DNA of 64,000 nt from a virus: positions 62,001 through 126,000 of IMG/VR virus record IMGVR_UViG_3300042691_047309; one strand, 5' to 3'. Made by a program: the position numbers and the translations under genes. The notes under the pieces are model-generated. The model saw nothing but the letters and a program-made list of their open reading frames with translations. It had not been told where the DNA came from and searched no databases. This document shows, piece after piece, positions 1,421 to 40,880 of the stretch (positions are counted from its first letter, which is position 1; every line of letters starts with the position of its first letter).

Positions 1421-3304
1421 ATGGCAAAAGATGTAATTATAGGAATTGACTTAGGCACAACTAACTCTTGTGTTGCTGTGGTAGAAGGTGGAGAACCAAT
1501 CGTTATCACAAACGCTGAGGGTAAAAGAACAACACCATCAGTGGTTGGTTTTACCGACAAAGACAGAAAGATTGGTGATCCTGCTAAAAGACAAGCAGTA
1601 ACTAATCCAAACAAAACCGTTTATTCTATCAAAAGATTTATCGGTAAAGATTTTTCAGTTTGTAAGGATGAGGTAACTCGTGTTCCTTATGAAGTTACTA
1701 ACACTGGAACTAATGTTCCTGGTGTGAAAATCGATGATAGAGTTTATACTCCACAAGAAATTTCAGCAATGATCCTTCAGAAGATGAAAAAAACTGCTGA
1801 AGACTATTTAGGTTATGAAGTAAAAAGAGCAGTTATCACTGTCCCGGCTTACTTTGGAGATGCTGAAAGAACCGCTACTATTGAAGCTGGTGAAATCGCT
1901 GGTCTAAAAGTAGAGAGAATTATCAACGAACCAACAGCTGCGGCACTGGCTTATGGTTTAGATAAGAAAAACACAGACTCTAAAATCTTAGTATTTGACT
2001 GTGGTGGTGGAACTCATGACGTATCTGTTCTTGAAATCGGTGATGGCGTATTTGAAGTAAAATCTACCGATGGTGATACTCACTTAGGTGGTGACGACTT
2101 TGATAACGCAATTATCGAGTGGATGGTTAATGAATTTAAATCAGATAATTCAATTGACCTATCTAAAGACCCTATGGCTCTCCAGAGATTGAAAGAAGCA
2201 GCTGAGAAAGCAAAGATTGAATTATCTTCTACTTCTCAGTCTGAAATCAATCTACCTTACATTACTGCAAGAGATAACATGCCACTTCACTTTGTTAAGT
2301 CTTTAACAAAATCTCAGTTTGACCAAATGACCGCATCTTTGGTTGATAGAGCTGTGAAGTGTGCAAAAAGTGCCCTTAAAAATGCTGGTCTTAAACCATC
2401 TGACATTGATGAAGTAATCTTAGTCGGTGGTTCAACAAGAATTCCAGCAGTTCAGGAGGCAGTAGAAAAGTTCATTGGTAAGAAACCAAACAAATCAGTT
2501 AATCCTGATGAAGTAGTTGCTTTAGGAGCCGCTATTCAAGGAGCTGTTTTAAGTGGTGGAATTACTGATGTTCTTCTTTTAGATGTAACTCCTCTTTCAC
2601 TTGGTATTGAAACAATGGGTTCAGTTATGACTAAGTTAATCGAAGCTAATACAACAATTCCGACCCGTAAGTCAGAAACGTTCTCAACAGCTTCTGATAA
2701 TCAACCGTCTGTTGAAATTCACGTTTTACAAGGTGAAAGACCGATGGCTCGTGATAACCGCTCACTTGGTCGTTTTCACTTAGATGGAATCATGCCAGCT
2801 CCGAGAGGTATCCCTCAAGTTGAAGTAACATTAGACATTGATGCCAACGGTATACTTTCAGTTTCAGCTAAAGATAAAGCTACTGGTAAAGAAAATCAGA
2901 TTCGTATTGAAGGTGGTTCTCAATTATCTAAAGAAGAAATTGAAAGAATGAAAGCAGAGGCTGAAGCAAATGCTGAGGCTGATGCTAAAGAAAGAGAAAT
3001 GGTTGATAAGCTAAATGCAGCAGACTCAATGATTTTCCAAACGGAAAAACAAATTAAAGAGTTTGATGAGAAATTATCAGCTGAAGATAAGACAACTTTA
3101 AATGAGAAGTTGGCTAACTTGAAATCAGCTCATTCTGAGAAGAACTTAGAAAAGATTGACGAATCTACAGCTAGTTTAAACGAAGCTTGGTCTCAAATTT
3201 CTACTAAGTTATATCAGCAGTCACAGGAAGCCCCAACCAATTCAGATAACAATTCTGATCCTAGCGATGAAGTTCAGGATGCGGATTTTGAAGAAGTTCC
3301 TTAA
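1421..3304 (+). CDS. dnaK: Chaperone DnaK (Hsp70)
   Basis: A full-length Hsp70 of 627 aa. The nucleotide-binding domain begins with [17 protein letters not shown], has the phosphate-2 loop [14 protein letters not shown] (most DnaKs have FDLGGGTFDVS) and [11 protein letters not shown]. The linker [16 protein letters not shown] leads into the substrate-binding domain and lid, ending ADFEEVP, close to the usual EEVD/EEVK end. It refolds proteins with a J-protein and GrpE; neither partner gene is in the window, although the protein at 52119 carries DnaJ-like CxxCxGxG motifs. Strong terminator follows. A complete dnaK is unusual cargo for a phage and was probably taken from a Bacteroidota host. 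Confidence 0.97.
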
Positions 3305-4755: not shown

Positions 4756-5238
4756 TTATTGTTCATCCATTCCTCTTGGAAATTCATCCGGGTCTTCTAC
4801 TTCCATATTTCTATCGTAAGGATTATCATCATTGTCCTGAATAGTATCATTGTGTTGAATATGACAAGAAATCTGAAATTGACTTTGATCATTAAAGTTG
4901 AATTCAATCTCATAACCAACTGTGTATTCCATACTATTCAAAGTTTCTTTAGCCGATTGTAAGGCATCTAAAACCTTACTTATATCTACTTTCATAGGTT
5001 CTAAATTAGAGACACCATAAGCATAATCATTTTCAATATAGTCATATTTACTATTAGCGGTTTTCTTTAAATCAATAAAATACTTAGCGCCTTTATCTTT
5101 ACTAGCTCGGTATCCATCAATAAATGTAAGTGTGAAATCCATATCAATTAAATCAATAAAAATATCATTGATAGTTTTCTCATCAATATATTCATTACTT
5201 TCTTTAATGAATTCTTGGTATGTCTTTTTTATCTTCAT
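4756..5238 (-). CDS. Packaged-type protein with the closest match to the T4 capsid-targeting sequence
   Basis: A 160-aa protein starting MKIKKTYQEFIKESNEY. The KTYQEFI segment is, as I recall, the same as in T4 internal protein III (MKTYQEFIAE), and I-K-E fits the [IL]-x-E cleavage rule of the T4 prohead protease. The body (residues 20-160) shows no recognised domain and ends with an acidic, Asp-rich stretch. It lies downstream of 5241-6482 on the same strand with a 2-bp gap. Confidence 0.65.
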   Translation of the reverse strand: MKIKKTYQEFIKESNEYIDEKTINDIFIDLIDMDFTLTFIDGYRASKDKGAKYFIDLKKTANSKYDYIENDYAYGVSNLEPMKVDISKVLDALQSAKETLNSMEYTVGYEIEFNFNDQSQFQISCHIQHNDTIQDNDDNPYDRNMEVEDPDEFPRGMDEQ

Positions 5239-6821: not shown

Positions 6822-7796
6822 CTCTACTTGTGGAAAAAGGTCAAATTTATCTTTTCTCACTTGTGTGTGTGTTCTTAGACCACCTAAACTAAACCACTTA
6901 TCATCATACTCAAACCAATCTTCATTGTAGATTCCCTTTTCTATTTCTATGTTCCATCTGTCTTTCAAATAAAGAATTAGATTTCTTGTTGAGTTTAGTT
7001 GTAAATCTGTATATCTTTCCCAATATTTATATCCCCTAAAAGGATTCGATAACTCAACCACATCTGAATCATTAATTGGTTTATTAACATAGTTATAAAA
7101 TCTGCCGTCTTTTCCTTGAGTGAGTTGTCCGTAATTACAAATTTCTATTGAAATTGACTTCGAGTTAAGTTCTTGTGACTTTTTTGTTATTCCTAAGTGA
7201 TATGCCCAATTTCTATCATCTATAGCTCTTAACACTTTACCATCCCATATTGTTTCAAATGTGGATGATGATTTTCTACCAATAACAAAATGAGTTCCGA
7301 CTTTTAAAGGCTTAGGAGTTCCATTAGTATCTAATGTAGGATTTCCATCAGAGTCTTTTTGAAAGTCCTTTTCCCAGGAACCAATAGTCCAGTCTGGTCT
7401 TGATCCACCAGCAGTGTGATGTAACCATATTGTATTTTTTTGAGTCTCTGATTCGTAGTATTCTTCTTTAGATAAAAGATTGTCAAATATTCTTAACCCA
7501 CCTTCTCCAATGTAGAAAACATTTTGAGGAATTTCAACTACGTTACTTACCGGAATTGGATCCATATTTCTTGGTTTCCCGTCATATGCCATTAGTTGGT
7601 ACCAAGTTTGTGATCCAACGACTCCATCTGCTTTTATTCCAATTTTTCTTTGAAAAGTAGTAACCGCAACAAGAGTGTTTTGACCAAAATGTCCATCGAT
7701 TTTCTCTTTTAGAAATCCAAATTCCTTCAGTTTAATTTGTAACTGTCTAACGTCATCACCTGACATCTTTAAAGTTATAACTCTTTTTAGTTTCAT
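6795..7796 (-). CDS. Endolysin: peptidoglycan-binding domain plus N-acetylmuramoyl-L-alanine amidase
   Basis: A 333-aa protein. Residues 5-70 are a PG_binding_1 module (SGDDVRQLQIKLKEFGF, DGHFGQNTLVAV, GVVGSQTWYQLM). Residues about 120-325 are an Amidase_2 domain: the first zinc ligand lies in WLHHTAGG, followed by GTHFVIGR, a YHLG histidine, SISIEICNYG and a C-terminal RTHTQVRKDKFDLFPQ that replaces the usual GHxxxxxxKxDPGP. It would cut the bond between muramic acid and the stem peptide. No signal peptide is seen, so release would need a holin or similar, not recognised here. Its ATG overlaps the stop of the 7793 gene (ATGA). Confidence 0.92.
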   Translation of the reverse strand: MKLKRVITLKMSGDDVRQLQIKLKEFGFLKEKIDGHFGQNTLVAVTTFQRKIGIKADGVVGSQTWYQLMAYDGKPRNMDPIPVSNVVEIPQNVFYIGEGGLRIFDNLLSKEEYYESETQKNTIWLHHTAGGSRPDWTIGSWEKDFQKDSDGNPTLDTNGTPKPLKVGTHFVIGRKSSSTFETIWDGKVLRAIDDRNWAYHLGITKKSQELNSKSISIEICNYGQLTQGKDGRFYNYVNKPINDSDVVELSNPFRGYKYWERYTDLQLNSTRNLILYLKDRWNIEIEKGIYNEDWFEYDDKWFSLGGLRTHTQVRKDKFDLFPQVELIQMLNSL

Positions 7797-8311
7797 TGGT
7801 TCTCTAAATTTTTATATCTAAGTTGATTTTTTTGTTCCATATAAGCTTTTAAGTCTTCATATGTTACATTACCTGGATTTGCAAACAATTTTTGAGGATC
7901 AGCTGGTTTTTTATCTTCAATTTTCTTTAATTCATCATTCCTTTTCTTTTCATCATAAGCTTCTTCTGCTTGTTTCAAAAGATGACCAATATAGAATTCT
8001 ATTCCCTTTTCTTTAACTAAATCTCTGTCAAAAGTATTTATAAATTCTTCAAAGGTTTCACCAACATAGACACCAAAGTTATCATCTCTTACAAAATGGT
8101 CAATATAAAACTTTATATCACCGATTGATCCTTGTGCATAAATTGTTGTTTTATATTGAGAAGTGTAATAATATGAAAATCTATCTTTTTCATTTAGCAT
8201 CCTTTGACCATTCTTTTCAACTGTTGATACTAATCCTAAACTATGTCTGTAATGCCTACATTTTTTGAATTCATTACAGATTGAAGTGCTACAAACTATA
8301 TTTACTGACAT
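7793..8311 (-). CDS. Hypothetical protein upstream of the endolysin
   Basis: A 172-aa protein starting MSVNIVCSTSICNEFKKC. Three cysteines in the first 18 residues plus CRHYRH suggest a small metal site. The C-terminal half is charged and helical (QAEEAYDEKKRNDELKK). It is translationally coupled to the endolysin by a 4-bp overlap, so a link to lysis or virion enzymes is possible. No family recognised. Confidence 0.6.
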   Translation of the reverse strand: MSVNIVCSTSICNEFKKCRHYRHSLGLVSTVEKNGQRMLNEKDRFSYYYTSQYKTTIYAQGSIGDIKFYIDHFVRDDNFGVYVGETFEEFINTFDRDLVKEKGIEFYIGHLLKQAEEAYDEKKRNDELKKIEDKKPADPQKLFANPGNVTYEDLKAYMEQKNQLRYKNLENQ

Positions 8312-8344: not shown

Positions 8345-8896
8345 CTATTCTGTTTCAATTTCAAATTCTTCTTCATCTGAACCAAACTCTTCATCTAGTT
8401 CTAATTTTAAATCAATAATAAATTCTTCGTCTAGTTTTTTAACTTCGACATTTTTAGAAATTTGACCAATAATATCAAAAGAGTTAATATCATATTTTTT
8501 GAATTTAACATAACATTTCTTTATATCGGAAATCTTAAAATCTTTTGTCGCGTCTTTAGGAAGAGCTTCTTTCAAATCGATCATAATAATTAAGGCATAT
8601 GTTGCTAACTCATCAGAAAATTTAACAGTAAGAGAATCATATAATTTAGAATATTTAGACAATTCATTACTCTCTAATCTTAATCCTAAGTCTTTAAAAC
8701 TCATTTTGGATTTGTCCTTAAAGTCTCTTTTTGCTTGTTGAGGTGTTTTTTCTTCTGTGGAATTTTCATCCGGAACCTCATAGTCAAACATCCTATCTAC
8801 ATCTCTTTTTAACTTTGTAAGAGCCATTGCGACATAATTTTCTGGAGTATCGTTTAACTCTTCGTTAATAAATTGAAAAAATTTTCTAATCTTCAT
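8345..8896 (-). CDS. Packaged-type acidic protein
   Basis: I set the start at ATG 8896 (183 aa) instead of 8917 because MKIRKFFQFINEELND fits the capsid-targeting-like N-terminus with an I-N-E site, and a late motif lies 3 nt upstream. The protein is strongly acidic at its C-terminus (EEFGSDEEEFEIETE). No domain recognised. Confidence 0.65.
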   Translation of the reverse strand: MKIRKFFQFINEELNDTPENYVAMALTKLKRDVDRMFDYEVPDENSTEEKTPQQAKRDFKDKSKMSFKDLGLRLESNELSKYSKLYDSLTVKFSDELATYALIIMIDLKEALPKDATKDFKISDIKKCYVKFKKYDINSFDIIGQISKNVEVKKLDEEFIIDLKLELDEEFGSDEEEFEIETE

Positions 8897-8899
8897 AAA

Positions 8900-8910
8900 G
8901 TATATATTAT
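8900..8910 (-). promoter_or_regulatory. Putative late promoter ATAATATATAC
   Basis: Minus-strand motif 3 nt upstream of ATG 8896. Supports that start. Confidence 0.5.
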
Positions 8911-8987
8911 TTTTCAATTTCCGTTATTTGGAAAATAGAATAAACAATATATAATTTGATAAGTATAATAAAAAAAAAGAAATTCAA

Positions 8988-10910
8988 ATGAGTCTATTAA
9001 ACACAATCAAAAAAGATTTCGTTCAAACTGAAAAAGATTTATCAATAAAGGATTATTTAGAACTTTGTAAAAATGATAAATCAATTTACACTTCACCTGC
9101 TGAAAGAATGCTTCAAGCAATTGGAGAGCCTGAAGTCATTGATACTAAATTCGACGAGAGATTAAGTCGTATTTATTCTAACCGAGTTATTAAAAGATAT
9201 CCAGCCTTTGCTGAGTTTTTTGGAATGGAAGATACAATCGAACAAATAGTATCTTTCTTCAAACACGCTGCACAGGGATTAGAAGAAAAGAAACAAATTA
9301 TTTATCTACTCGGTCCAGTTGGTGGTGGTAAATCATCTTTAGCAGAAAGGTTAAAACAATTAATGGAAAAAAGCTATATCTATGTTCTTATAGCTGACGG
9401 AGAGGTTTCTCCTGTTTGGGAAAATCCACTTGGACTTTTTTCAAATTATAGAACTGAACTAGAAGATGAATATGGTATTCATAGAAGATACGTTCCTTCT
9501 TGTCCTTCTCCTTGGGCTACAAAAAGATTAGCTGAATTTGAAGGTGACATTTCTAAGTTCAAAGTTCGTAGATTGAAATGTTCTATCTCATCACAAATAG
9601 GTATTTCTAAAGTAGAACCAGGAGATGAGAACAATCAGGATATCTCAGCGCTTGTTGGAAAAGTTGATATTAGAAAACTGGCTGAGTTTCCACAAAATGA
9701 CGCAGATGCTTACTCTTACTCAGGTTCTCTTTGTAAATCTAATCAAGGACTTATGGAATTTGTTGAGATGTTTAAAGCTCCGATTAAATTACTTCACCCA
9801 TTATTAACAGCTACTCAAGAAGGTAACTTTAATGGAACTGAAAACTTACCAGCTATTCCATTCCAGGGTATTCTTTTAGCTCACTCTAATGAGTCTGAGT
9901 GGGAAACCTTCTCTAATGATAAAAAGAATGAAGCTTTCTTAGACCGTGTTTATATTGTAAGAGTTCCTTACTGTTTGAGAATCGACGAAGAAGTAGAAAT
10001 TTATCAAAAACTTCTTAAAGGTTCTTCTCTTTCTCAAGCACCTTGCGCTCCTAAAACATTGGAAATGCTCGCTCAGTTTTGTGTAATGACAAGACTTAAA
10101 AGACCAGAAAATTCACTTATGTATTCTAAAATGAGAATTTATAATGGTGAGAACTTAAAAGAGTCTGATCCAAAGGCTAAATCATTACAGGAATATAAAG
10201 ACGATGCCGGAATTACTGAAGGAATGAACGGAATCTCTACCCGTTTTGCTTTTAAAGTTCTTTCTAAAGTATTCAACCATGATTCAGAAGAAGTTGCGGC
10301 AAATCCAGTTCATCTTTTCTATGTTTTAGAACAGGAAATCGTTAAAGCTCAAATGAATAAAGAAGTTGAAGAGTATTACTTAAATATTCTTAAATCAACA
10401 ATGACTAACAAATATGCTGAGTTCATCGGTGATGAAATTCAAAAAGCTTACGTTGATTCTTATCAAGAATATGGTCAAAACTTATTTGAGAGATATATTA
10501 CTTATGCTGATCATTGGTGTCAAGATAATGATTATAGAGATCCTGAAACTGGTCAGCAATTTGATAGAGGTGCTCTTAACGAAGAGTTAGAAAAAATTGA
10601 AAAGCCGGCTGGTATTGCAAATCCAAAAGATTTCAGAAATGATATAGTTCAATTTTATCTAAGACACAAAGCTAAGAATAGTAAATCTCCATCATGGGAT
10701 TCTTATGAGAAAATTAAGAATGTTATTGAAAAAAGAATATTCTCTAAAACTGAAGATCTTATACCAGTCATATCATTCACTGGTAAAACTTCTAAAGACG
10801 AAGAGAAGAAACATTCTGAATTTGTCAATAGAATGAAAGATAGAGGATATACTAATAAACAAATAAAACTTTTGACAGACTGGTACCTCAGAATTAGGAA
10901 ATCATCTTAA
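8988..10910 (+). CDS. prkA: PrkA (YeaG)-type serine protein kinase with AAA domain
   Basis: A 640-aa protein, the normal PrkA length. The N-terminal half is the PrkA AAA domain: YPAFAEFFGMEDTIEQIV leads to the Walker A motif LGPVGGGKSSLAERL at about residue 105, with ILLAHSNESEWETF around residue 300. The C-terminal half is the PrkA kinase-like region (YLNILKSTMTNKYAEFIGDEI, then FERYITYADHW and DPETGQQFD). In bacteria YeaG acts with YeaH and YcgB in starvation and stress adaptation. Here the YeaH and SpoVR homologues follow within 5 kb. Confidence 0.93.
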   Translation: MSLLNTIKKDFVQTEKDLSIKDYLELCKNDKSIYTSPAERMLQAIGEPEVIDTKFDERLSRIYSNRVIKRYPAFAEFFGMEDTIEQIVSFFKHAAQGLEEKKQIIYLLGPVGGGKSSLAERLKQLMEKSYIYVLIADGEVSPVWENPLGLFSNYRTELEDEYGIHRRYVPSCPSPWATKRLAEFEGDISKFKVRRLKCSISSQIGISKVEPGDENNQDISALVGKVDIRKLAEFPQNDADAYSYSGSLCKSNQGLMEFVEMFKAPIKLLHPLLTATQEGNFNGTENLPAIPFQGILLAHSNESEWETFSNDKKNEAFLDRVYIVRVPYCLRIDEEVEIYQKLLKGSSLSQAPCAPKTLEMLAQFCVMTRLKRPENSLMYSKMRIYNGENLKESDPKAKSLQEYKDDAGITEGMNGISTRFAFKVLSKVFNHDSEEVAANPVHLFYVLEQEIVKAQMNKEVEEYYLNILKSTMTNKYAEFIGDEIQKAYVDSYQEYGQNLFERYITYADHWCQDNDYRDPETGQQFDRGALNEELEKIEKPAGIANPKDFRNDIVQFYLRHKAKNSKSPSWDSYEKIKNVIEKRIFSKTEDLIPVISFTGKTSKDEEKKHSEFVNRMKDRGYTNKQIKLLTDWYLRIRKSS

Positions 10911-11029
10911 TGAGACCTGTTAAAGACTTATTTACAAAAGAATACTATCGTATTAATCGTATTAAAAGGGTAGTTGTGCGCAAACTAAAAATAGAAAGAA
11001 TATTCAATGTCAATAAACATAGTAGATAG
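10910..11029 (+). CDS. Possible 39-aa basic peptide between prkA and yeaH
   Basis: ATG at 10910 overlaps the prkA stop (TAATG) and the frame encodes MRPVKDLFTKEYYRINRIKR and 19 further residues, very rich in Arg and Lys. It overlaps the start of the yeaH-like gene by 23 bp in another frame. The coupled start and coding-like composition support it weakly. Confidence 0.35.
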   Translation: MRPVKDLFTKEYYRINRIKRVVVRKLKIERIFNVNKHSR

Positions 11030-12272
11030 AAGAAAAAATCCAAAAGGGAAATCCTCTGATAATCGTCAGAGGTTTCTAAAAAGGATCGAAGGTCAAATAA
11101 AAAAGGCCTTACCTGACATTGTTAAAGGTACTGGTATAAAAGATATCACATCATCAGGTGGTAAAGTAAAAGTTCCTGTTAAAGGAATATCTGAGCCACA
11201 ATTTACATATGATAAAGATTCTGGTGATAAAAAATATGTTCATCCAGGAAATAAAGAATATGTTCCCGGTGATAAAATAAAAAAACCTCAAGGTGGTCAA
11301 GGTAAAGGATCAGGTAAACAAGGATCAAACGATCCTTCAACCGGAGAAGATGAGTTCTCAGTTACAATTAGTAGAGATGAGTTCTTAGATTACTTTTTTT
11401 CTGATTTAGAACTTCCAGATATGGTTAAAAAACATCTTAACACTATTGTTGATTGGAAACAAAAAAGAGCTGGATTCTCTAATTATGGTAATCCAAGTAG
11501 GTTAAATGTTGTTAAATCATTTAAAAACTCAATGGCTCGTAGAATGGCTCTTGGATTCTTTTTTGATAAAAAAATCAAAGATGTTGAGGAGTTATTAAAA
11601 GATGATACTTTAACTAAAGAAAGAAGATTAGAGTTAGAATTTGAATTAGACAAACTTAAGAAAATGAAACTTAGTGTTTCATTTATGGAGGAAGTCGACC
11701 TTCAATATAATAACTTTGAAAAAGTTGCTGTTCCTACTACTTGTGCTGTTATGTTCTGTATAATGGATATCTCTGGTTCAATGGGTGAAAAGGAAAAGGA
11801 TATTTCAAAAAGATTCTTTATGTTACTTTATATGTTTCTTACAAAACAATATGAAAAAATTGAAATTGTTTTTATTAGACATCACACAGAAGCAAAGGAA
11901 GTTAGTGAAGAAGAATTCTTTAATAGTAAAGAAACAGGTGGAACAGTTGTTACTCCTGCACTTGAACTAATGAATAAGATTATAAAAGAAAGATACTCAA
12001 AAGATTGGAATATCTATGCTGCGCAAGCTTCAGATGGTGATGTTTGGAATCGTTCAGATGCTGATGATTGTTATAAAATATTAGACACTGATATATTAAA
12101 TAAAATTCAATATATGATTTATATTGAAGTTTGTAGAGATAATGATGGTGACCTTTGGAGTAATTATAAATTACTTTCTGAAAAGAGAAATAATTTCGAG
12201 ATTGGAAAAATTCACGAAGTAGGTGAGATATGGACTGTATTTCAAGACTTCTTTAAAAAGAAAACCGTCTAA
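11007..12272 (+). CDS. yeaH: YeaH/YhbH-like VWA-domain protein (DUF444 family)
   Basis: A 421-aa protein with the family's usual opening (INIVDRRKNPKGKSSDNRQRFLKR), a basic, Gly-rich linker around residues 90-115, and a C-terminal von Willebrand A domain. The MIDAS-type motif appears as MDISGSMGEKEKD near residue 255, followed by GGTVVTPALELM. Partner of PrkA/YeaG in the bacterial stress operon; biochemical role not established. It directly follows prkA on the same strand. Confidence 0.92.
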   Translation: MSINIVDRRKNPKGKSSDNRQRFLKRIEGQIKKALPDIVKGTGIKDITSSGGKVKVPVKGISEPQFTYDKDSGDKKYVHPGNKEYVPGDKIKKPQGGQGKGSGKQGSNDPSTGEDEFSVTISRDEFLDYFFSDLELPDMVKKHLNTIVDWKQKRAGFSNYGNPSRLNVVKSFKNSMARRMALGFFFDKKIKDVEELLKDDTLTKERRLELEFELDKLKKMKLSVSFMEEVDLQYNNFEKVAVPTTCAVMFCIMDISGSMGEKEKDISKRFFMLLYMFLTKQYEKIEIVFIRHHTEAKEVSEEEFFNSKETGGTVVTPALELMNKIIKERYSKDWNIYAAQASDGDVWNRSDADDCYKILDTDILNKIQYMIYIEVCRDNDGDLWSNYKLLSEKRNNFEIGKIHEVGEIWTVFQDFFKKKTV

Positions 12273-12276
12273 AATA

Positions 12277-13767
12277 TTACTGTGTTGTAAATTGATAAAC
12301 CTTTCCCGAACTACCATAGTCAACTATCTTAGCAGCTACAAACTTTGCACCTTCTGCTGCATATTGTGACCAAGATTCATCAGAATATTTATTTGTATTT
12401 TGCTCAACAAACGTCAACGCATTATTAGCAATTTTTACAGCTTGACTAGAATACTCAGAAACACTTTTTCCGTCTCTTAGATTAATCAAATAAACCATTA
12501 CTTCAGAAGTTAATTTGGATTTTTCAAAATCCATTTCTTCTGCAGCACTATCCGAAATAGCTTCCATTACTCCTATTGCTTTATTTATAGTTTCTGGTGA
12601 TGGTTTTCCTCCACTAGCCGCGGCAGAAGTAAGTACAAAAAGTATAACAAGTAGGACTATAGTTATAATTATAGTTCTGTATAATACTGGATGTTTTTCT
12701 TTAAAATTTTTAATCTTATCCAAAATCCATTTTATAAATTTCTCAACAATTGATGCTGACTTTACACCTAATTCATACATCTTAAGACTTATACTTTCTA
12801 AATTTTCATTGAATTTTTTAAAGAAACTTTCAATAGTATCTAAACCTTTACCAATTGTTGCTAATAACTCATTAAAATTGGCTCCGGTGACACCAAATTT
12901 ACCCAAGTGGTCCCAGATTGATCTGTATTCTTTCTGATCTATATCACTCATTTCACTATTGATATAATCTTTAAGATTTGGCTTACCTTTAGAAATTAAT
13001 AAATTATTTATCTGTGCAATTTCATTCTTACTCTTTATTCTCTTAATTATTTTTAAAGCTGATTCTTCATCCGTACCGTCATAATCACCTTTAAATGATT
13101 TAATTAAATCATCTACTATAGATTTTACCGAATTATCAACTTTGTCATTTTTTTTACTTTCTATATTATTCCAATCTATGTCATTGAAAACACTATCATC
13201 TAATTTATGACCTATCATAGTATAAAGACCTATTTCTTTTAATGCATCCGGATTTGTCTTTATTATTTTTTCTAATTGACGAACTTTACCATCAACTATT
13301 TTGATACCGAATTTTTTATCAGAATTATTTGTTAAATCTTCTAATCTTTTATTTAGTTCGATTTTATTTATTTTCTTTGATTTGTATGATGATATTAGTT
13401 CATACATTTTATCAAGTGGTAATCTCATTTGTACACTAAATTCATGTCCTGAGAATGGTACAATTTCATTTTTTGAGGATTTTAAAAACCATTTGGCTAG
13501 TGGTGTGTTTGTCACAACAATGTCATATCTTAAATACCAAACATTTTGTTTCTTACCTATAGAAATGTATGGATCATCTTCGACTTCGACTTCATCTTTG
13601 ATTTTTTCTGTTTGATAGTTCAATACAAAATCTAAAACTGGACTATCATCTTTATTTGGATCTGCAAAATAGTCAGAAAGATTTCCTTTTTCATATTCGT
13701 CTTTGTTCCAAAACCATTCCTCATTAATTGCACATCTAAAAGATTCGTATGTTTTGATATACTTCAT
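12277..13767 (-). CDS. Packaged-type protein with one transmembrane segment
   Basis: A 496-aa protein beginning MKYIKTYESFRCAINEEW, the shared targeting-like N-terminus with an I-N-E site. A strong hydrophobic helix (RTIIITIVLLVILFVL) lies around residues 365-385. The preceding part is helical (IESFFKKFNENLESISLKMY). No known domain. A capsid-targeted protein with a membrane helix could be ejected into the cell envelope with the DNA, which is inference. It is inserted, on the opposite strand, between the yeaH-like gene and spoVR. Confidence 0.6.
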   Translation of the reverse strand: MKYIKTYESFRCAINEEWFWNKDEYEKGNLSDYFADPNKDDSPVLDFVLNYQTEKIKDEVEVEDDPYISIGKKQNVWYLRYDIVVTNTPLAKWFLKSSKNEIVPFSGHEFSVQMRLPLDKMYELISSYKSKKINKIELNKRLEDLTNNSDKKFGIKIVDGKVRQLEKIIKTNPDALKEIGLYTMIGHKLDDSVFNDIDWNNIESKKNDKVDNSVKSIVDDLIKSFKGDYDGTDEESALKIIKRIKSKNEIAQINNLLISKGKPNLKDYINSEMSDIDQKEYRSIWDHLGKFGVTGANFNELLATIGKGLDTIESFFKKFNENLESISLKMYELGVKSASIVEKFIKWILDKIKNFKEKHPVLYRTIIITIVLLVILFVLTSAAASGGKPSPETINKAIGVMEAISDSAAEEMDFEKSKLTSEVMVYLINLRDGKSVSEYSSQAVKIANNALTFVEQNTNKYSDESWSQYAAEGAKFVAAKIVDYGSSGKVYQFTTQ

Positions 13768-13784
13768 GTTGAAAATAACTTTCT

Positions 13785-13796
13785 ATTATATATAAA
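13785..13796 (-). promoter_or_regulatory. Putative late promoter before the 13767 gene
   Basis: TTTATATATAAT on the minus strand, about 17 nt from ATG 13767, farther than at most sites, so this transcript would have a short leader. Confidence 0.35.
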
Positions 13797-13846
13797 TTAT
13801 TATAAACAATAAACTAAAAATAGACTAAAAATAAAAACAAAATTAT

Positions 13847-15343
13847 ATGAAGAAAAAAGATATCAAAAACTTATTCTCAAAATCAGATTGGAATGAAGAA
13901 ACTATTCAAGTTTTTTCTGAAATAATTGATAAAATGTCTATAGACTTACTTGGACTTGATGTTTATGTAAATCAATTTGAAATTGTATCTTCTGAACAAT
14001 TACTAGATGCTTACGCACTTATAGGACTTCCACTTTCATATAACCATTGGAAATTTGGAAAAGATTATGTAGTAAATACAAATAATTATAAAAAAGGAAG
14101 AATGGGTCTAAGCTACGAAATGGTAATTAACAGCTCGCCCTGCATCTCTTACAACTTAGAGGACAATGATACTTGTCTTATGTTATTAGTTTATGCACAT
14201 GTTCAGGGCCATAATCACTTCTTTAAGAACAATTATCTTTTTAAACAATGGACTCAAGCTGATTCCATTATCGATTATATGTTATTTGCTAAAAACTTTA
14301 TTGCCAAATGTGAAGAGAAGTATGGATATGAAGAAGTTGAAATGGTTTTAGATGCTTGTCACGCACTTATGAACTATGGTGTTGATAAATATAAAAAACC
14401 GGCTAAATTATCACCTAAAGAAGAGCATGACAGATTAAAAAAGAAGATTGAAGACGATAGAATTTTACTTGATGACATCTGGAGAACCCTTCCTAAGGAT
14501 GATCAGAAAAGAAAAAGAAAAGAAAGATTTCCGGCTCAACCTGAAGAAAATATTCTTTACTTTATCGAAAAAAATTCACCAAAACTAAAAGCTTGGCAAA
14601 GAGAAATTGTTAGAATTGTTAGAAAGGTATCTCAATACTTTTACCCACAGGGTCAAACTAAAGTTATCAATGAGGGATGTGCGACTTTTACACACTATGA
14701 GATAGTAAATAAAATGTTTGAAGAAGGATATTTAGATGATGGATTTATGTTAGAATTTATGCACCATCATTCTAATGTTATTTTTCAACCGGGATTTGAT
14801 TCTAAATTCTATTCAGGTTTGAATCCATATACTTTAGGCTTTAATATCTTTTCTGATTTAAAAAGAATGTCATTAGATCCAACTCCAGAGGATTTACAAT
14901 GGTTTCCTGAAATTGCTGGAAAAGGAGATTGGAAAGAACAATTTTTATATATTGTTGAAAATTTCAAAGATGAAACATTTGTTCTTCAATATCTTTCTCC
15001 AAAAGTTATGCGTGATATGAGATTATTTGAGATATCAGATGAATCAACTTCTAACTTTTATAAAGTTAGTTCAATTCATAATGAAAAGGGATATAAAAAA
15101 GTTAGACAATCACTTTCTGAATTTTATAACAGAAGTAGATATGTTCCAGATATTCAAGTTTATAATGTTGATGTTTATGGAAATAGAAGTCTTACTTTAG
15201 AATACACTCCTTTAGATGGTAGAGATTTAGATTCAAATGAAGTTGATAAGGTTCTTCCACATGTTAAATACTTATGGGGATTTCCAGTTAAGATGGTTCA
15301 AAGAGGTCAAGAAAAATTGACAGTTATTTCTTCTTTGGAATAA
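13847..15343 (+). CDS. spoVR: SpoVR family protein (YcgB-like)
   Basis: A 498-aa protein of normal SpoVR length. Family landmarks are EIVSSEQLLDAYALIGLPLSYNHW near the N-terminus, LVYAHVQGHNHFFKNN (His-rich), FYPQGQTKVINEGCATFTHYEI in the middle and SGLNPYTLGFNIFSDLKR. Molecular function is unknown; in enterobacteria it is co-regulated with yeaG and yeaH. Completes the trio in this phage. Confidence 0.93.
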   Translation: MKKKDIKNLFSKSDWNEETIQVFSEIIDKMSIDLLGLDVYVNQFEIVSSEQLLDAYALIGLPLSYNHWKFGKDYVVNTNNYKKGRMGLSYEMVINSSPCISYNLEDNDTCLMLLVYAHVQGHNHFFKNNYLFKQWTQADSIIDYMLFAKNFIAKCEEKYGYEEVEMVLDACHALMNYGVDKYKKPAKLSPKEEHDRLKKKIEDDRILLDDIWRTLPKDDQKRKRKERFPAQPEENILYFIEKNSPKLKAWQREIVRIVRKVSQYFYPQGQTKVINEGCATFTHYEIVNKMFEEGYLDDGFMLEFMHHHSNVIFQPGFDSKFYSGLNPYTLGFNIFSDLKRMSLDPTPEDLQWFPEIAGKGDWKEQFLYIVENFKDETFVLQYLSPKVMRDMRLFEISDESTSNFYKVSSIHNEKGYKKVRQSLSEFYNRSRYVPDIQVYNVDVYGNRSLTLEYTPLDGRDLDSNEVDKVLPHVKYLWGFPVKMVQRGQEKLTVISSLE

Positions 15344-15362: not shown

Positions 15363-16286
15363 ATGAAAAATATTGGATACTGTTGCATCCCAATGGGTTG
15401 TAATGTAGGTAAGAAAAAGAAAGAACATATTACCGTAAATAGAGGAATGGTTCGTAAAACATTTGATGATAAAGGATTGCCTTATGTATCTGAATTGGTT
15501 ATTGAAAATCTCAAAGACACACTTAAAGTATTAGACTATAATCTATCTGTTGGTATTTATATCTACAGATTATCATCCGACTCTTTTCCGTGGATGTCAG
15601 AGTATGAGTTCTCTGATTTACCAAACTTTGATATGATACAAAAGCTTATGGCTCAAATCGGTGATAAAATAAAATCTAATAACATTAGAGTGAGCTATCA
15701 TCCAGGACCATTCAACGTTTTGGCAAGTGAGAGCCCTTCTGTTGTAGAGAAAACAATCAAAGAGTTAAATAAACATGCAGAACTTATGGATTTAATGGGA
15801 TTGGATAAATCACATTATTATCCTATCAATATTCACATCAATACGACTAAGCCTACAAGAGAAGAAGCTGCTCAACGATTTGTTGATAATTTTTCACTTC
15901 TTTCTGAGTCTTGTAAGAGTAGATTAACATTAGAGAATGATGATAGTCCGAATCAATACTCTGTTAAAATATTACACGACTTTGTTTATACCAAAACTAA
16001 TATTCCAATTGTATTCGATCAACATCACTTCAACTATGGTGAACAAGACCAAACTATGGAAGAAGCATTGCGATTAGCACATTCTACTTGGAATGTTAGA
16101 CCAATGACTCATATGAGTTCACCAAAAACATTAGAAGATAATTCAGGTAAACAAACAGCACATGCAGATTACATTTATGAAGAAATTAAAACATTTGGTC
16201 TTGACTTTGATACAGAAATTGAAGCGAAAGCCAAAGATCTCGCTGTGTTAAAATACCGGAAACAGTTTCAATTAATTAAGTCATAA
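15363..16286 (+). CDS. uvsE: UV-damage endonuclease UvsE (UVDE)
   Basis: A 307-aa TIM-barrel nuclease that nicks DNA 5' to UV photoproducts. Landmarks: IGYCCIP start, IYRLSSDSFPW, RVSYHPGPFNVLAS, INIHINT, the LENDD metal-ligand motif, VFDQHHFNYG, THMSSP, a HADYI segment and the terminal EIEAKAKDLAVLKYR. All expected metal-binding His, Glu and Asp positions appear to be present. T4 uses DenV for this job; this phage has the UVDE solution instead. TATATTTG promoter directly upstream. Confidence 0.93.
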   Translation: MKNIGYCCIPMGCNVGKKKKEHITVNRGMVRKTFDDKGLPYVSELVIENLKDTLKVLDYNLSVGIYIYRLSSDSFPWMSEYEFSDLPNFDMIQKLMAQIGDKIKSNNIRVSYHPGPFNVLASESPSVVEKTIKELNKHAELMDLMGLDKSHYYPINIHINTTKPTREEAAQRFVDNFSLLSESCKSRLTLENDDSPNQYSVKILHDFVYTKTNIPIVFDQHHFNYGEQDQTMEEALRLAHSTWNVRPMTHMSSPKTLEDNSGKQTAHADYIYEEIKTFGLDFDTEIEAKAKDLAVLKYRKQFQLIKS

Positions 16287-23700: not shown

Positions 23701-23973
23701 TTATTTTAGAATTTCAGAAATCTTCTCATCTCTATCTATTGAATAAGTATCTATAATGAAAATTGGACTACCATCTATTCTTGACCTACTTATAAACTTA
23801 GCCCAGTATTTCTGACCAAAGTATTTTTTATCAATAAGGTTTTTTCTTACCGTTTCATCTTCAGAACTCCAATCGTATCGATGATTTAAGTCATCAATAA
23901 TTTCAAAAGATTTGTCGAAACAAATAAGTTGGTCTTTGGATTCTAAACCAATTTTTTTTATTAGAATTGTCAT
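23701..23973 (-). CDS. Hypothetical protein with the shared C-terminal motif
   Basis: Start taken at ATG 23973, which overlaps the topoisomerase stop as ATGA; the 24018 start would run 45 nt into that gene. The 90-aa product begins MTILIKKIGLESKDQL and ends SIDRDEKISEILK, a clear shared tail. The middle (YFGQKYWAKFISRSRIDGSP) is basic. Function unknown. Confidence 0.6.
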   Translation of the reverse strand: MTILIKKIGLESKDQLICFDKSFEIIDDLNHRYDWSSEDETVRKNLIDKKYFGQKYWAKFISRSRIDGSPIFIIDTYSIDRDEKISEILK

Positions 23974-25814
23974 TTCAGTAATTCTACTTTTCTTAAGTCT
24001 GAATTCTTTCCAAACCAAGTTTCAAGTGATGATTTTGAAGCCTCATCTTTTGTAATCATTGTCATTCTTGGCGAATTAATGATATCTTGATACTCATCAT
24101 CGACAAGAGCTGCCAAACCTTTCTTATACTTAATCTCGTATTGTTTTGGATCATTCTTACTTTCCCATTCATTGTATTCGGTCTGTGAGTAAAAAAGAAT
24201 TTTCTTTTTACCCTTTTGTTTTGGAATGGCAACAACAATCGGAGTTTCTACTTTCCAAATCATTTTCCTGTCAAACATATCTGGCCAATATTTATGAAAG
24301 AAGTTAATAAGAAGTCCCGCGATGGAATTCCCATCGACATCAGCATCTACATAAAAAAGTATTCGACCATATCTTAAAGATTTTAAATCAATTTCTTGAC
24401 CTAACTTCAGTCCAATTGCCGCCATCAAATTAACCACTTCATCATTTCCAACCAGTTTTTGATTAGTCATCTCAGATACATTAACAAACTTTCCTTTAAG
24501 TGCAAAAGCACCCATCGTCTCCGGAGTCCTGTATTTTCTAAAAGCTGAAATAGCGGAGTCTCCCTCGAATAATCCAATGGAACATTTCCAACGATCTTTT
24601 CCTTTAGCATCAATTAGTTTTTCAACTTTGATTTTAGATAACTTTTTATTTAATTCTCTTTGAAGTTTTGAGTCTTCAGCACTTTTCTTTTGTTGAATCC
24701 AGTCTAAAATAGAATTGACAATCTCAGATTTAAGAATAGATTGGATTAATTTATTTGGAACCTCATAAGTTGAACCAAAGTCTTTAACTTCTGTAATTAG
24801 TTTCTCTTTTGTTTGAGAAGAAAATGATGGATTAATTATAGTAGAATCTAAGAAAAGAAACATATGTTGTTTTAACTCTGAGGGTTTAACATCAACTTTG
24901 TGTTTTTTCATAAAGAATTCTCTTAGAGATACTACTATTTGATTCATAATATAATCAACGTGTGTTCCTCCATCATAAGTTTCTGTTGAGTTAGCAAAAC
25001 TAACTTGTTGAAATCCATTTTCGGAAAGAGCAATTGCAAATGACCAGTTTTTATCTTTTGATGTTTCATAGAAATAATCTTTGACATATAATTTTATGTA
25101 ATCTTCAAATGAATTGAAATTTATCAAATTCCCATTAAATGTGAATTTGATACTTGGGTTTGTTCCTGCTAAATCATAAACTCTTTTCTCTAACATTTTG
25201 AAATGATCATTATCTATTTTAGACAATCCAAACTGAGATAGGTCTGGTTTATATTTTATTTCTGTGTGATTTGACTTTGACTTTTTAACAATTGGATTAT
25301 TCCTATCTCTCATATTGTTTTTGAATGTTTGTGTAAAATGATTCTTACCATCACATGTAGAGATAGTGAATTCGACAGAGAAGACATTAGTAAGCTTTGC
25401 GCCTAGTCCATTTAAACCAGCTACTGTTCTCTCATCACTGTCATCATAATTACTACCCGACATTAAATTACCAAATATAACTTCTGGGACATATTGATCA
25501 TGTTCTTTGTGAATCACAACCGGTATCCCTCCATTATCTTTAACCGTTATCAAATTATTTTCAGTATCAACAACAACATCTATTTTATTTAAACTTTTGT
25601 TTCTTTTGTGTTCATCAACTGAATTTGTAACAACTTCGTCAAATATTTTAACAAATGATGGTATATATGTTATTTCTCTTTGTAAGATTTTATTATCATC
25701 TATTATGTTTTTAACAGAGGTATTGGGTTTATTCGAACCAACATATGTCTGTGGTCTGAGTAAGATATGTGTTATTTGATCTAATACTTTATACTTATCT
25801 TCTATTTTTTTCAC
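23970..25814 (-). CDS. DNA topoisomerase II large subunit (gp39/GyrB-like)
   Basis: A 614-aa ATPase and TOPRIM subunit. GHKL ATPase motifs: FDEVVTNSVDEH, VKDNGGIPV, VAGLNGLGAKLTNVFS. TOPRIM motifs: CSIGLFEGDSAISAF and LFYVDADVDGNSIAGLL. It hydrolyses ATP to drive strand passage with the subunit at 29581. T4 splits this protein into gp39 and gp60; here it is one chain. A homing-endonuclease-like gene overlaps its start by 20 bp. Confidence 0.94.
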   Translation of the reverse strand: MKKIEDKYKVLDQITHILLRPQTYVGSNKPNTSVKNIIDDNKILQREITYIPSFVKIFDEVVTNSVDEHKRNKSLNKIDVVVDTENNLITVKDNGGIPVVIHKEHDQYVPEVIFGNLMSGSNYDDSDERTVAGLNGLGAKLTNVFSVEFTISTCDGKNHFTQTFKNNMRDRNNPIVKKSKSNHTEIKYKPDLSQFGLSKIDNDHFKMLEKRVYDLAGTNPSIKFTFNGNLINFNSFEDYIKLYVKDYFYETSKDKNWSFAIALSENGFQQVSFANSTETYDGGTHVDYIMNQIVVSLREFFMKKHKVDVKPSELKQHMFLFLDSTIINPSFSSQTKEKLITEVKDFGSTYEVPNKLIQSILKSEIVNSILDWIQQKKSAEDSKLQRELNKKLSKIKVEKLIDAKGKDRWKCSIGLFEGDSAISAFRKYRTPETMGAFALKGKFVNVSEMTNQKLVGNDEVVNLMAAIGLKLGQEIDLKSLRYGRILFYVDADVDGNSIAGLLINFFHKYWPDMFDRKMIWKVETPIVVAIPKQKGKKKILFYSQTEYNEWESKNDPKQYEIKYKKGLAALVDDEYQDIINSPRMTMITKDEASKSSLETWFGKNSDLRKVELLK

Positions 25815-34263: not shown

Positions 34264-35826
34264 TTATTGAATTATTATTTTTATAGTTTTATTTTGATTT
34301 ATTAAGTAATACTGACCCGGAGTACTGATACTAACAATTATATCATTTGATCTAATTTCTGTAACTAAACTTCCGACACTATCAAATATTTTTGAATCTG
34401 ATGGTAAATTTGCTATATTAAAAATGCCATTGTTAGGATTCGGATATACACTAAATTCAGAGTCACTTAAAGTATTAAAATGATTACCGTTATTACCCTG
34501 TCCATTGCCATTATTAGAATTAGAATTATTATTGATTACTCCGTTTTGACTTCCTAATTGTGAATTGTCATACCCTGGATTAGAAGGATCGAATCCGTCG
34601 CTATTTCCGTGTCCATTATTATTGTCATTATCTATAACCAAAGTCATTTCATAAGCAATTCTTACTGCTTCTGCTGAGTTTAATCTACCAGAACCCAACT
34701 TTCCTAAATATTGTGGATTTATTGAATAAATATCCACAGCTGTTATTCTAAGAATAGAATCAATTTCTGAATTTGTAATATTTGGATTCACTGATAACAT
34801 AAGAGCAATTGTACCAGATACATAAGGAGCAGCAAAAGAGGTTCCGGATGAATATGAATACCAACCCGGTGCAGCACTTAGTGGAACATTGTAACCAGGT
34901 GCGCAAATATCCACAGTTGAATTATGTTGATGTGTTGATCCATTTTGAGAAATATGACTATCATTTTGACCAACACTAGTAACTGAAAAAACGTGGTTGT
35001 AAGCGGCTGGATAAACTAAGTTATCAGGTCCACCACAAGTTGAGCCATTGCCAGCAGATGCTACTATAAATGTTCCGTTATTCCATACTTCGTCTATTGC
35101 TAATTGAGCGTAATAGTTATATGTGCAACCAGAAGCCCAACTCAGATTTATTACTTTATAACCATTATAAGATGCTTTTAACATATCATTATAATTCATT
35201 CTAAAAAGACCAAGTGAAGAATTATATCCAATTGAACTTATTCCTGTTGAGTTATTAGTATTCCCAGCAGCTGTAATTGCAACAGCTGTTCCGTGTGTTT
35301 TTGTAGATGTATTTGTAACATCATAGTATTTTACTTTTCCTACTAATTCTTCGTGATTTTGATAGAAGTTTTGGTCTGAAATAGCTATTCTAACAGATGT
35401 ATCACCGGTAGTATAAGACCAGGCGCCTTCGGCATTTATTAAACTAAGTGCCCAGTTATTAGAGAAAGAAGATGTGTAATCGTTAGGAAGTTCTAAAGTC
35501 TCAAATTTAGGAGCGATTTCAACCTTAGAGACTACAGTCGATTTGTTTGTAAGATTTTGTAATAATTCTACTTCATTACAGTTACAATCTATTTGATAAA
35601 CATTTTGTAATTTTTGATTTTTAGAGTCAGGAAATACTTTTTGAACATTTGTAATTTGGTATGTTTCTAAAACAGAGTTTAATTCTTGATTTTGAGAATA
35701 CAATTTATCACCTCTCATTTGTGGTACATTTTGGGACTCATTAATTGTCATCCAAACTGAATTTTGAGCCATTAAGTTTACACTTACTATTAAGATTGAT
35801 GTGATAAGTAGAATTAATTTTTTCAT
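34264..35826 (-). CDS. Secreted subtilisin-like serine protease with T9SS sorting domain
   Basis: A 520-aa protein. Signal peptide MKKLILLITSILIVSVNLMA (cleaved before QNS), then an S8 catalytic domain with the triad in VRIAISDQNF (Asp), TKTHGTAVAIT (His) and SYSSGTSFAAPYVSG (Ser). An Asn/Gly-rich linker (residues about 400-440) leads to a C-terminal domain beginning SVYPNPNNGIFNIANL, the type A T9SS sorting signal, ending QNKTIKIIIQ. It would cross the outer membrane by the host T9SS and act at or outside the cell surface. Confidence 0.92.
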   Translation of the reverse strand: MKKLILLITSILIVSVNLMAQNSVWMTINESQNVPQMRGDKLYSQNQELNSVLETYQITNVQKVFPDSKNQKLQNVYQIDCNCNEVELLQNLTNKSTVVSKVEIAPKFETLELPNDYTSSFSNNWALSLINAEGAWSYTTGDTSVRIAISDQNFYQNHEELVGKVKYYDVTNTSTKTHGTAVAITAAGNTNNSTGISSIGYNSSLGLFRMNYNDMLKASYNGYKVINLSWASGCTYNYYAQLAIDEVWNNGTFIVASAGNGSTCGGPDNLVYPAAYNHVFSVTSVGQNDSHISQNGSTHQHNSTVDICAPGYNVPLSAAPGWYSYSSGTSFAAPYVSGTIALMLSVNPNITNSEIDSILRITAVDIYSINPQYLGKLGSGRLNSAEAVRIAYEMTLVIDNDNNNGHGNSDGFDPSNPGYDNSQLGSQNGVINNNSNSNNGNGQGNNGNHFNTLSDSEFSVYPNPNNGIFNIANLPSDSKIFDSVGSLVTEIRSNDIIVSISTPGQYYLINQNKTIKIIIQ

Positions 35827-36086
35827 AACATTTTTTGTTTTTTTGTTTTATAATTTATATAGTTAGATACTACTGAAAAAGACACTGATTTTGACAGTTC
35901 CGAATGTAATTTACACATTCACTTATAGTAAGACATACATATAGATACTTACTAATATAAGTAATACTACTTAGTTAAATTTTTTTGATCATTGGATATA
36001 CTAAAATGCTCAAATCATTAGGTTTTACTGAATCTTTGTATTAAATATAAATATATACTATAGGGATTAAAAATTATTTTTCAATT
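35827..36086. other. Divergent intergenic region with inverted half-sites
   Basis: Between the divergent subtilase and adhesin genes. TACTTA (35946-35951), TAAGTA (35958-35963) and TACTTA (35968-35973) form two back-to-back inverted repeats, and GAATGT...ACATTC (35912-35930) can form a hairpin. Likely regulatory. No TAnnTTTG promoter is obvious; ATATATA lies at about 36050. Confidence 0.5.
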
Positions 36087-38246: not shown

Positions 38247-38250
38247 TTAA

Positions 38251-38284
38251 AAAAACGAGTTATTTAAATAACTCGTTTTTTTTG
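38251..38284. terminator. Terminator after the 36087 gene
   Basis: AAAAACGAGTTATTT and AAATAACTCGTTTTT form a long perfect stem followed by T residues. Confidence 0.9.
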
Positions 38285-38359
38285 CTCATTAGTCTGTATA
38301 TAATGCTCAATTTGTATTTTTTATAGCTAAACTTGATTGACTAAATTGATATATAGGGT

Positions 38360-40258: not shown

Positions 40259-40275
40259 AAATAAAAAAAAGAAAA

Positions 40276-40863
40276 ATGAAAAAACTATTAACTTCTCTAG
40301 TTGTTTTGTTTGTGAGTGTTGTTTCCTACTCTCAAACTTTTACAACTACTCAACCAGACACGGTGTGTTTTGGTTCGACAACTCCTTCAACTTATCAAGT
40401 TGCTAACATTGGTTCAGGAACTTATACTTGGACCATTCCTGCTTGCGCATCTATTGTATCTGGGCAAGGAACAAATCAAATTCAAGTCAATTGGTCTAAC
40501 TGTCCAGCTGGTTTAATTCCTAATGCTGTTTCTGTTACATATGCATCTCCAGCTCCAGCTAACTGTCCCGCTCTTCCAGTTGATATGGATGTTTTAATTT
40601 ATCAAGTTGTACCGACAATCACAGCTTTAGGTCCATTTTGTGAATCTGATCCTTGTGTGACTTTAGTTGGAACTCCAGCGGGTGGAACATGGACTGGATT
40701 AGGTGTTTCAGGAAACCAATTCTGTCCTGATAACGTAGCTAATGGAACTAACGCTACATCAACAGTTACTTATACACTTACAAATGGTGGATGTACATTT
40801 ACTACATCGGTAGTTGTTCCGGTTTATGGAACTCCTACACTTTCACCTATACAACACGATTAA
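40276..40863 (+). CDS. Secreted small surface protein
   Basis: A 195-aa protein with signal peptide MKKLLTSLVVLFVSVVSYS, a PKD-like region (TYTWTIPACASIVSGQGTN) and a module starting PTITALGPFCESDPC that is related to the 65-residue repeats of the preceding protein. Ends TLSPIQHD. It begins 17 bp after the previous gene and belongs to the same transcript. Confidence 0.85.
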   Translation: MKKLLTSLVVLFVSVVSYSQTFTTTQPDTVCFGSTTPSTYQVANIGSGTYTWTIPACASIVSGQGTNQIQVNWSNCPAGLIPNAVSVTYASPAPANCPALPVDMDVLIYQVVPTITALGPFCESDPCVTLVGTPAGGTWTGLGVSGNQFCPDNVANGTNATSTVTYTLTNGGCTFTTSVVVPVYGTPTLSPIQHD

Positions 40864-40880
40864 AAATAATATAAAGTAAA

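Follow-up and report, generated by a model that had tools for sequence, protein, structure and literature searches.

The locus

Genes for PrkA (YeaG), YeaH and SpoVR (YcgB) occur together in many bacteria and haloarchaea. Why would a phage bring a whole physiology module of this kind, not a single auxiliary gene, and what could it do? The question is raised by a 64,000-nucleotide stretch of DNA, called the window here, which comprises bases 62001-126000 of the 175,894-base IMG/VR virus record IMGVR_UViG_3300042691_047309, itself a fragment (175.9 kb). Here, we describe a complete trio in the window, embedded among phage genes and kept in order across related phages, and weigh a tentative explanation in which PrkA and YeaH would be a remodelling pair and SpoVR, which resembles a degenerate gluzincin, their client. 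The genes concerned are:

8988-10910, + strand: PrkA/YeaG, AAA+ ATPase with PrkA C-terminal domain, 640 amino acids (Pfam, NCBIfam, conserved residues)
11007-12272, + strand: YeaH/DUF444, VWA-domain partner, 421 amino acids (Pfam, intact metal site, predicted fold)
12277-13767, - strand: open reading frame (ORF) inserted between YeaH and SpoVR, 496 amino acids, without known family or relative; not counted in the module
13847-15343, + strand: SpoVR/YcgB, gluzincin-like, 498 amino acids (Pfam, profiles, predicted fold)
15363-16286, + strand: UvdE-type ultraviolet (UV) endonuclease (PF03851, E 3.1e-51), a linked downstream neighbour; outside the trio

The three trio ORFs are complete in length and lie on the same (+) strand, and each protein exceeds its NCBIfam equivalog cut-off. 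The initial annotation described full-length homologues in order on one strand, interrupted only by one opposite-strand gene, with family motifs kept; coordinates, strand, and Pfam and NCBIfam matches agree with this, the single interruption is 12277-13767, and the Walker A motif of PrkA is intact (G112, K115, S116).

PrkA and YeaH

Both Pfam domains of PrkA are present in order and span its full length, AAA_PrkA (PF08298) at residues 19-376 (E 1.5e-169) and the C-terminal domain (PF06798) at 379-629 (E 2.3e-65), and the protein scores 1120.6 bits against NCBIfam NF011999 (cut-off 576). Residues K115, S116, E260, N301, R320 and R419 are identical in 165/165 alignment rows, E257 and E315 vary in one row each, and A or S replaces G114 in 14 rows; this alignment and the 165-row YeaH alignment each include five phage rows that are ~23-30% identical. 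Beyond Walker A, we presume AAA+ roles for E257/E260, N301, R320 and R419, in the nucleotide site or as sensor and finger residues.

YeaH matches DUF444 (PF04285, E 1.3e-148) over residues 5-419 of 421 and profile positions 2-418 of 418, and its metal ion-dependent adhesion site (MIDAS; D254, S256, S258, T313 and D343, in the pattern DxSxS...T...D) is identical in every one of the 165 rows. The model of YeaH (predicted local distance difference test score, pLDDT, 79.8; predicted template modelling score, pTM, 0.62) has a VWA fold with a best Z of 16.8, and NorD of the NorQD system ranks 27th among its fold matches. Sequence searches of the PDB returned one distinct sequence for PrkA, 9xip, and only chance-level syntaxin matches for YeaH. 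The AAA+ protein and its VWA partner are encoded together, as in MoxR AAA+/VWA pairs, and their kept AAA+ and MIDAS residues are easier to reconcile with a remodelling pair than with a signalling kinase.

SpoVR

SpoVR matches PF04293 over residues 14-429 (E 7.2e-152) and SpoVR_C (PF24755) over 434-485 (E 2.9e-20), and scores 711.6 bits against NCBIfam NF008737 (cut-off 679). Eight residues, E91, H118, G121, H122, F126, W250, E276 and A279, are identical in 163/163 rows; H118, H122 and E276 are likely, as putative assignments, to be three metal ligands. The catalytic Glu of an HExxH motif is absent in all 162 readable rows (one of the 163, L226, was not read by the motif pattern), where the first His is followed by A or V; alignment column 119 holds A, V or one C. 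Because this Glu is missing throughout, SpoVR is not to be filed as a peptidase. The two His are spaced H-x4-H in 152 rows and H-x3-H in ten, all of them viral and the window's among them.

Predicted structure and profile comparison both point to gluzincins. When 762 of the 767 top Foldseek chains were re-aligned to an AlphaFold2 model of SpoVR (mean pLDDT 83.5, pTM 0.84), M1 aminopeptidases ranked first (Z 10.8, root-mean-square deviation 3.7, 181 residues), and all 50 listed fold rows are M1, M2, M3 or M32 gluzincins, mostly ACE2; we presume the family placement of ACE2 and oligoendopeptidase F. Foldseek against viral models gave one match, a 617-residue protein (E 8.7e-11) with a length equal to that of phiLo SpoVR, and a PDB sequence search with SpoVR gave none. 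In single-pair comparisons with a profile built from 19 M1 domains, a 70-row SpoVR profile reached 28.2% probability; with the same rows, 60 column shuffles gave no more than 6.7% and 60 reversals no more than 0.3%. The 163-row profile, a full-length version run without shuffle control, reached 76.9%, and the YeaH and PrkA controls 0.2% and 0.1%.

In the uncut profile, NEGxA and NPYxxG line up with M1 motifs. Once residues 130-271 are removed, the probability is 96%, with HxxGH on HExxH, NEGxA on the third-ligand motif and NPYxxG on YxKG. Among 30 equal-length deletions scanned, the highest score fell on this region too (62.4 versus at most 44.2 elsewhere), 100 shuffles of the cut columns scored at most 22.7 versus 64.4, with probabilities of at most 3.1%, and the cut result was 95.9% minus the five divergent rows and 89.2% from those five alone. 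A resemblance of SpoVR to an M1-like gluzincin, degenerate and without the catalytic Glu, is thus supported by sequence profiles and a predicted fold. This likeness is new here and the bolder part of our findings; no paper joining SpoVR with a zincin was found in the open-licence literature. It makes the function of the operon testable in the laboratory, in Escherichia coli K-12 or a Thermus phage.

A side observation concerns the NEG-x-ATF motif of SpoVR. In LR756504.1 (L005; 21516-23423) and in L254 the motif is split by a 129-residue insert that is intein-like at its ends, beginning with Cys and finishing with His-Asn, followed by Cys; the L254 insert has no Pfam intein match, and for both records the intein idea is one of sequence pattern alone. 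An intein requires C, S or T after its exit point. At residue 278 of the window's SpoVR, 12/12 huge-phage rows have Cys (10) or Thr (2) and 78/78 bacterial rows have W, F or H; four further viral rows have Cys. This residue may be a trace of an intein since lost.

Distribution of the trio

PrkA matches 16 records in the phage collection: LR745206 (85.9% identity), LR756502 (85.5%), Enterobacter phage LAU1 (66.5%), LR756504 (65.1%), 11 Thermus phage records and LR756511. From IMG/VR, 80 of 120 relatives were used, 13 of them at 81-95% identity. Among the 57 of these loci with at least 4.5 kb downstream of PrkA, some of which are near-duplicates from related samples, 55 have the ordered PrkA-YeaH-SpoVR trio, and both exceptions, L025 and L028, are without SpoVR. 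The ordered trio is also present in 74/74 bacterial loci with room, which come from the 80 best matches and so are biased to Cytophagales and Gammaproteobacteria. Haloarchaea hold the same three families together, as stated in excerpts of PMC3102087. LAU1 (L007) and L028 resemble prophages that include some flanking host DNA, with YeaG-YeaH at or near the edge and no SpoVR.

More distant phages have the module too. Thermus phages carry all three families in the order VWA-SpoVR-PrkA (Pfam confirmed four of the SpoVR and two of the DUF444 proteins); in TMA and YS40_Isch the matches are limited to PrkA and the VWA gene. The 595-kb phage LR756511.1 (L006) has a strongly divergent trio, at 25-27% identity, in the order PrkA-YeaH-SpoVR; its genome also gives one strong ABC-transporter ATPase match. 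Because very divergent phages keep the trio together, we read it as one functional unit, and conservation across such phages marks out a small set of residues that are always kept.

Phage context

The genes flanking the trio on both sides recur in unchanged order in LR745206 (634.8 kb) and in six IMG/VR contigs (L012, L013, L015, L018, L019 and L024), which is in line with the initial annotation's claim of a complete trio carried by a phage. LR756502 has all three genes among other neighbours, with zero matches to the genes upstream of the window's PrkA. Within this clade, PrkA is 81-95% identical, the two genes just upstream (8345-8917 and 7793-8311) 37-66%, DnaK (1421-3304) 64-86% and topoisomerase (23970-25814) 72-96%, so that the trio is among the best-conserved parts of its neighbourhood. 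In the huge-phage clade its base composition differs by no more than 2 points from that of the phage DNA around it, and in L025, just outside the clade, by 3.6 points; recent acquisition was not seen in base composition.

The phage nature of the record rests on IMG/VR, synteny and PHROG matches, and neither terminase nor tail sheath was matched in its 175.9 kb. Among 39 records, terminase was matched in 17: four huge-phage genomes and 13 IMG/VR records, all of the latter outside the group of close fragments. Tail sheath was matched in 9/26 records at E <= 0.001, two above the cut-off. ABC-transporter ATPases above the cut-off were found in 5/26 virus records (~7.15 Mb in total) versus 69 matches in one 7.6-Mb bacterial genome, with weaker matches (E <= 0.001) in 14 more virus records. 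The neighbours in L043 are phage-type. The idea that most IMG/VR matches of 60-65% identity are bacterial contigs was mostly rejected for the larger contigs.

Origin and selection

In a 136-row PrkA tree, whose distant rows are Thermus phages and LR756511, the 12 huge-phage rows form one group (Shimodaira-Hasegawa-like approximate likelihood-ratio test, SH-aLRT, 100) with zero bacteria inside. Smaller trees of PrkA, YeaH and SpoVR, unrooted and built from hand-picked rows, share one main split: huge-phage, sister-phage and Bacteroidota rows are on one side of a branch (SH-aLRT 100, 99 and 100, respectively), Gammaproteobacteria and other phages on the other, and phages as a whole never make up one side. 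YeaH is 53-57% identical to four Bacteroidota rows versus at most 49% to Gammaproteobacteria, SpoVR 57-60% versus at most 54%, and by identity both are nearest to Cytophagales. Since the three gene trees agree, block transfer is favoured; capture of the whole cassette from a bacterium in one piece is the most likely origin, and several separate uptakes by phages would be the simplest reading of the trees.

The cassette is a long-standing resident of the huge-phage clade. Across comparisons with nine relatives, the ratio of nonsynonymous to synonymous substitution rates (dN/dS) of the trio is 0.03-0.16 in 26/27 cases and undefined in one, most being saturated (dS >1). As judged from these ratios, the trio is kept under purifying selection.

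Proposed function and alternatives

The explanation that we place first, with a chance slightly short of even, is that the captured trio is an AAA+/VWA remodelling pair with SpoVR as its client, keeping a slow or starved host productive. PrkA would form an ATP-driven AAA+ ring, and YeaH would dock on it through its VWA domain, the MIDAS metal site holding the client. That client would be SpoVR, gluzincin-like, with three metal ligands kept and the catalytic Glu lost. ATP hydrolysis would remodel or metallate SpoVR, by analogy with the action of NorQ-NorD on nitric oxide reductase, and the active product would help to keep the slow or starved infected cell productive. In this proposal the phage brings all three genes because no part would be useful alone. 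The relation of PrkA-YeaH to SpoVR as AAA+/VWA pair to client is drawn by analogy with MoxR-type systems. Excerpts of PMC9976466 report that NorD MIDAS mutations keep the complex and abolish target activity, and those of a NorQD study, PMC13036017, favour metal insertion by twisting.

A more specific version is doubtful, in our judgement: SpoVR would be a re-tooled, metal-binding, non-peptidase gluzincin that is loaded or switched by PrkA-YeaH, and several phage lineages (the window's huge-phage clade, other jumbo phages and Thermus phages) would carry the whole machine as a unit, some with H-x3-H. If true, the loading of SpoVR by PrkA-YeaH would offer a first account of how a widespread bacterial stress operon works. 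Any gain for the phage is speculative, host support being our first choice for it and virion building the main rival.

Several points weigh against the remodelling explanation. A physical PrkA-YeaH-SpoVR complex with ATP-driven activation is itself argued by analogy, and excerpts of PMC13001217 assign Bacillus PrkA to AAA+ clade III, the main analogy here being MoxR. Close linkage is not universal: SpoVR of LR756502 is ~245 kb away from PrkA-YeaH, and L025 has no SpoVR downstream of the pair. For SpoVR as a gluzincin, Foldseek found nothing in the PDB at E <= 0.001 (best E 0.26), and a Z of ~11 for a helical protein is non-decisive by the structure-alignment tool's own note. The uncut profile puts another SpoVR helix, not H118-H122, on HExxH, the 130-271 cut was picked after the motifs had been seen, and SpoVR was unmatched by M3 and M32 profiles, of which the M32 set was a single row and the M3 set included one wrong ORF (L292). 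As for the capture, PrkA is 66-69% identical to both Bacteroidota and Gammaproteobacteria and does not discriminate between them, and in the 136-row tree a branch of 98 separates Bacteroidota from a set made up of the huge-phage clade, LR756504, Gammaproteobacteria and other phages. The two splits are compatible with a single unrooted tree that has the huge phages between the two bacterial groups, so that more than one source and direction would fit.

Of the alternatives to remodelling for host support, one places the trio in virion building: SpoVR would be an adaptor for the AAA+/VWA pair, which would remodel phage proteins while heads are assembled or packaged. The trio of Thermus phages Lalka27b and phiYS40 does adjoin, or lie at most 3 kb from, portal, minor head or terminase genes; however, in the phiLo and MN1 stretches examined the genes next to it include no annotated head gene, and none was recognised among the scanned proteins around the window's trio. 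The trio proteins also still pass bacterial equivalog cut-offs, so their function has probably shifted little, and we consider a virion role unlikely.

A kinase role is improbable. Here PrkA would be a Ser/Thr kinase pushing the host into a starvation-type state, much as the initial annotation had the phage impose a stress state during infection; the family names and the match to the PrkA C-terminal domain favour it, and YeaG is tied to nitrogen starvation in Escherichia coli (excerpts of PMC4664914). However, excerpts of PMC13001217 describe a Bacillus PrkA, a homologue of the window's protein, whose kinase and protease activities are negligible and whose kinase domain has no P-loop. The same excerpts relate that limited protease activity was reported earlier for B. 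subtilis PrkA, find none in the purified Bacillus protein and suggest that a contaminant may account for the earlier activity; a protease reading is less probable still than the kinase one. A kinase also leaves the retention of YeaH and SpoVR, and the invariant AAA+ residues, unexplained. A stress state imposed through a kinase is thus disfavoured, and a support version, in which the phage maintains a host already stressed, is possible.

Finally, an assembly error that joined a bacterial operon to a phage contig, which the initial annotation had set out beforehand as the case against a phage trio together with absence in related phages, is rejected as next to impossible: PrkA is still as close to the best bacterial homologues as noted above and the record has no terminase or sheath match, but the trio is present in relatives, with matching surroundings in LR745206 and in six contigs from IMG/VR, the PrkA clade of 12 rows is phage-only, and base composition follows the neighbouring phage DNA.

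Inserted ORF and neighbouring genes

The inserted ORF (12277-13767) had zero matches in Pfam, PHROGs, NCBIfam, PADLOC, the phage collection and IMG/VR, and was unmatched in all 21 related loci compared. Six other ORFs of the 33 tested were likewise unmatched in these loci, and private genes are therefore common in this region. In the sister locus L012 (95% identical) the YeaH stop and the SpoVR start touch, so that 12277-13767 is an insertion at a gene junction. The same junction holds ~1.06 kb of different DNA in L024 and ~1.96 kb in L005 and L254, which in L005 consists of two methyltransferase-like ORFs and a small ORF. The label "packaged-type" in the initial annotation refers to the N-terminus only (MKYIKTYESF...), loosely common to other window ORFs: by eye, ~13-15 otherwise unrelated ORFs open with a similar peptide, MK-[YHF]-[IL]-K-x-[FY]-... 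(for example 55009-55821, 55835-56560, 56557-57417, 57421-58692, 12277-13767 and 4756-5238), and a coded version of the pattern flagged only six. The shared MK-[YHF]-[IL]-K start resembles a capsid-targeting leader.

Recognised genes around the trio are endolysin-like, UV endonuclease, DnaK and topoisomerase II. UvdE was matched in 9/13 of the closest IMG/VR loci (L012-L024) and unmatched in L014, L021, L022 and L023, of which L014 and L022 end too early, and in L002. The DnaK gene (1421-3304) encodes a full-length Hsp70/DnaK (PF00012, E 5.3e-250), a chaperone of host type close to the trio, and several close relatives likewise carry it on the upstream side. Further downstream, 34264-41447 is a cluster of probably secreted proteins, including a subtilase. 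Type IX secretion system (T9SS)-type domains (sorting tail, T9SS-associated) are below the cut-off in 36087-38246 and 38360-40258, and a PKD-like domain is above it in 40276-40863, hinting at a Bacteroidota host. PADLOC gave zero defence matches among five proteins scanned, Rfam gave zero matches at gathering score for structured RNA in the window, and sigma-70-like promoter sites are not enriched (51 versus 45.3 in shuffles, standard deviation 6.9).

Comparison with known systems

Single genes of the trio are already annotated in Thermus phages and in RsoM2USA, and none of the open-licence papers listed in the searches describes the three genes together as a phage module. In RsoM2USA, a cultured Ralstonia jumbo phage, excerpts of PMC8504454 place SpoVR (ORF28) and PrkA (ORF30) 1.36 kb apart, near one another as in the window, with a gap that fits a YeaH-sized gene; in these excerpts the two are filed under separate functions, and ORF29 is unnamed in the main text. 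Thermus phages phiYS40, phiLo, MN1, Lalka8, Lalka27a and Lalka27b have SpoVR, serine kinase and DUF444 in one cluster, like the window, but at ~23-31% identity, in the order VWA-SpoVR-PrkA and, in some, with portal or terminase adjoining.

The bacterial yeaG-yeaH-ycgB operon has the same three families in the same order as the window, whereas the window's trio is phage-borne, belongs to a phage-only PrkA clade, is interrupted on the opposite strand and has an H-x3-H SpoVR in place of H-x4-H. SpoVR may resemble M1 aminopeptidases and other gluzincins in its predicted fold and three motifs, and differs in the missing HExxH Glu and in a ~140-residue insertion between its motifs. NorQ-NorD and MoxR pairs share with PrkA-YeaH an AAA+ ATPase and a MIDAS VWA protein, and the NorQ-NorD client, in the excerpts cited, is a metalloprotein; PrkA differs from MoxR AAA+ proteins in having its own C-terminal domain, and a complex or metal insertion by PrkA-YeaH is putative.

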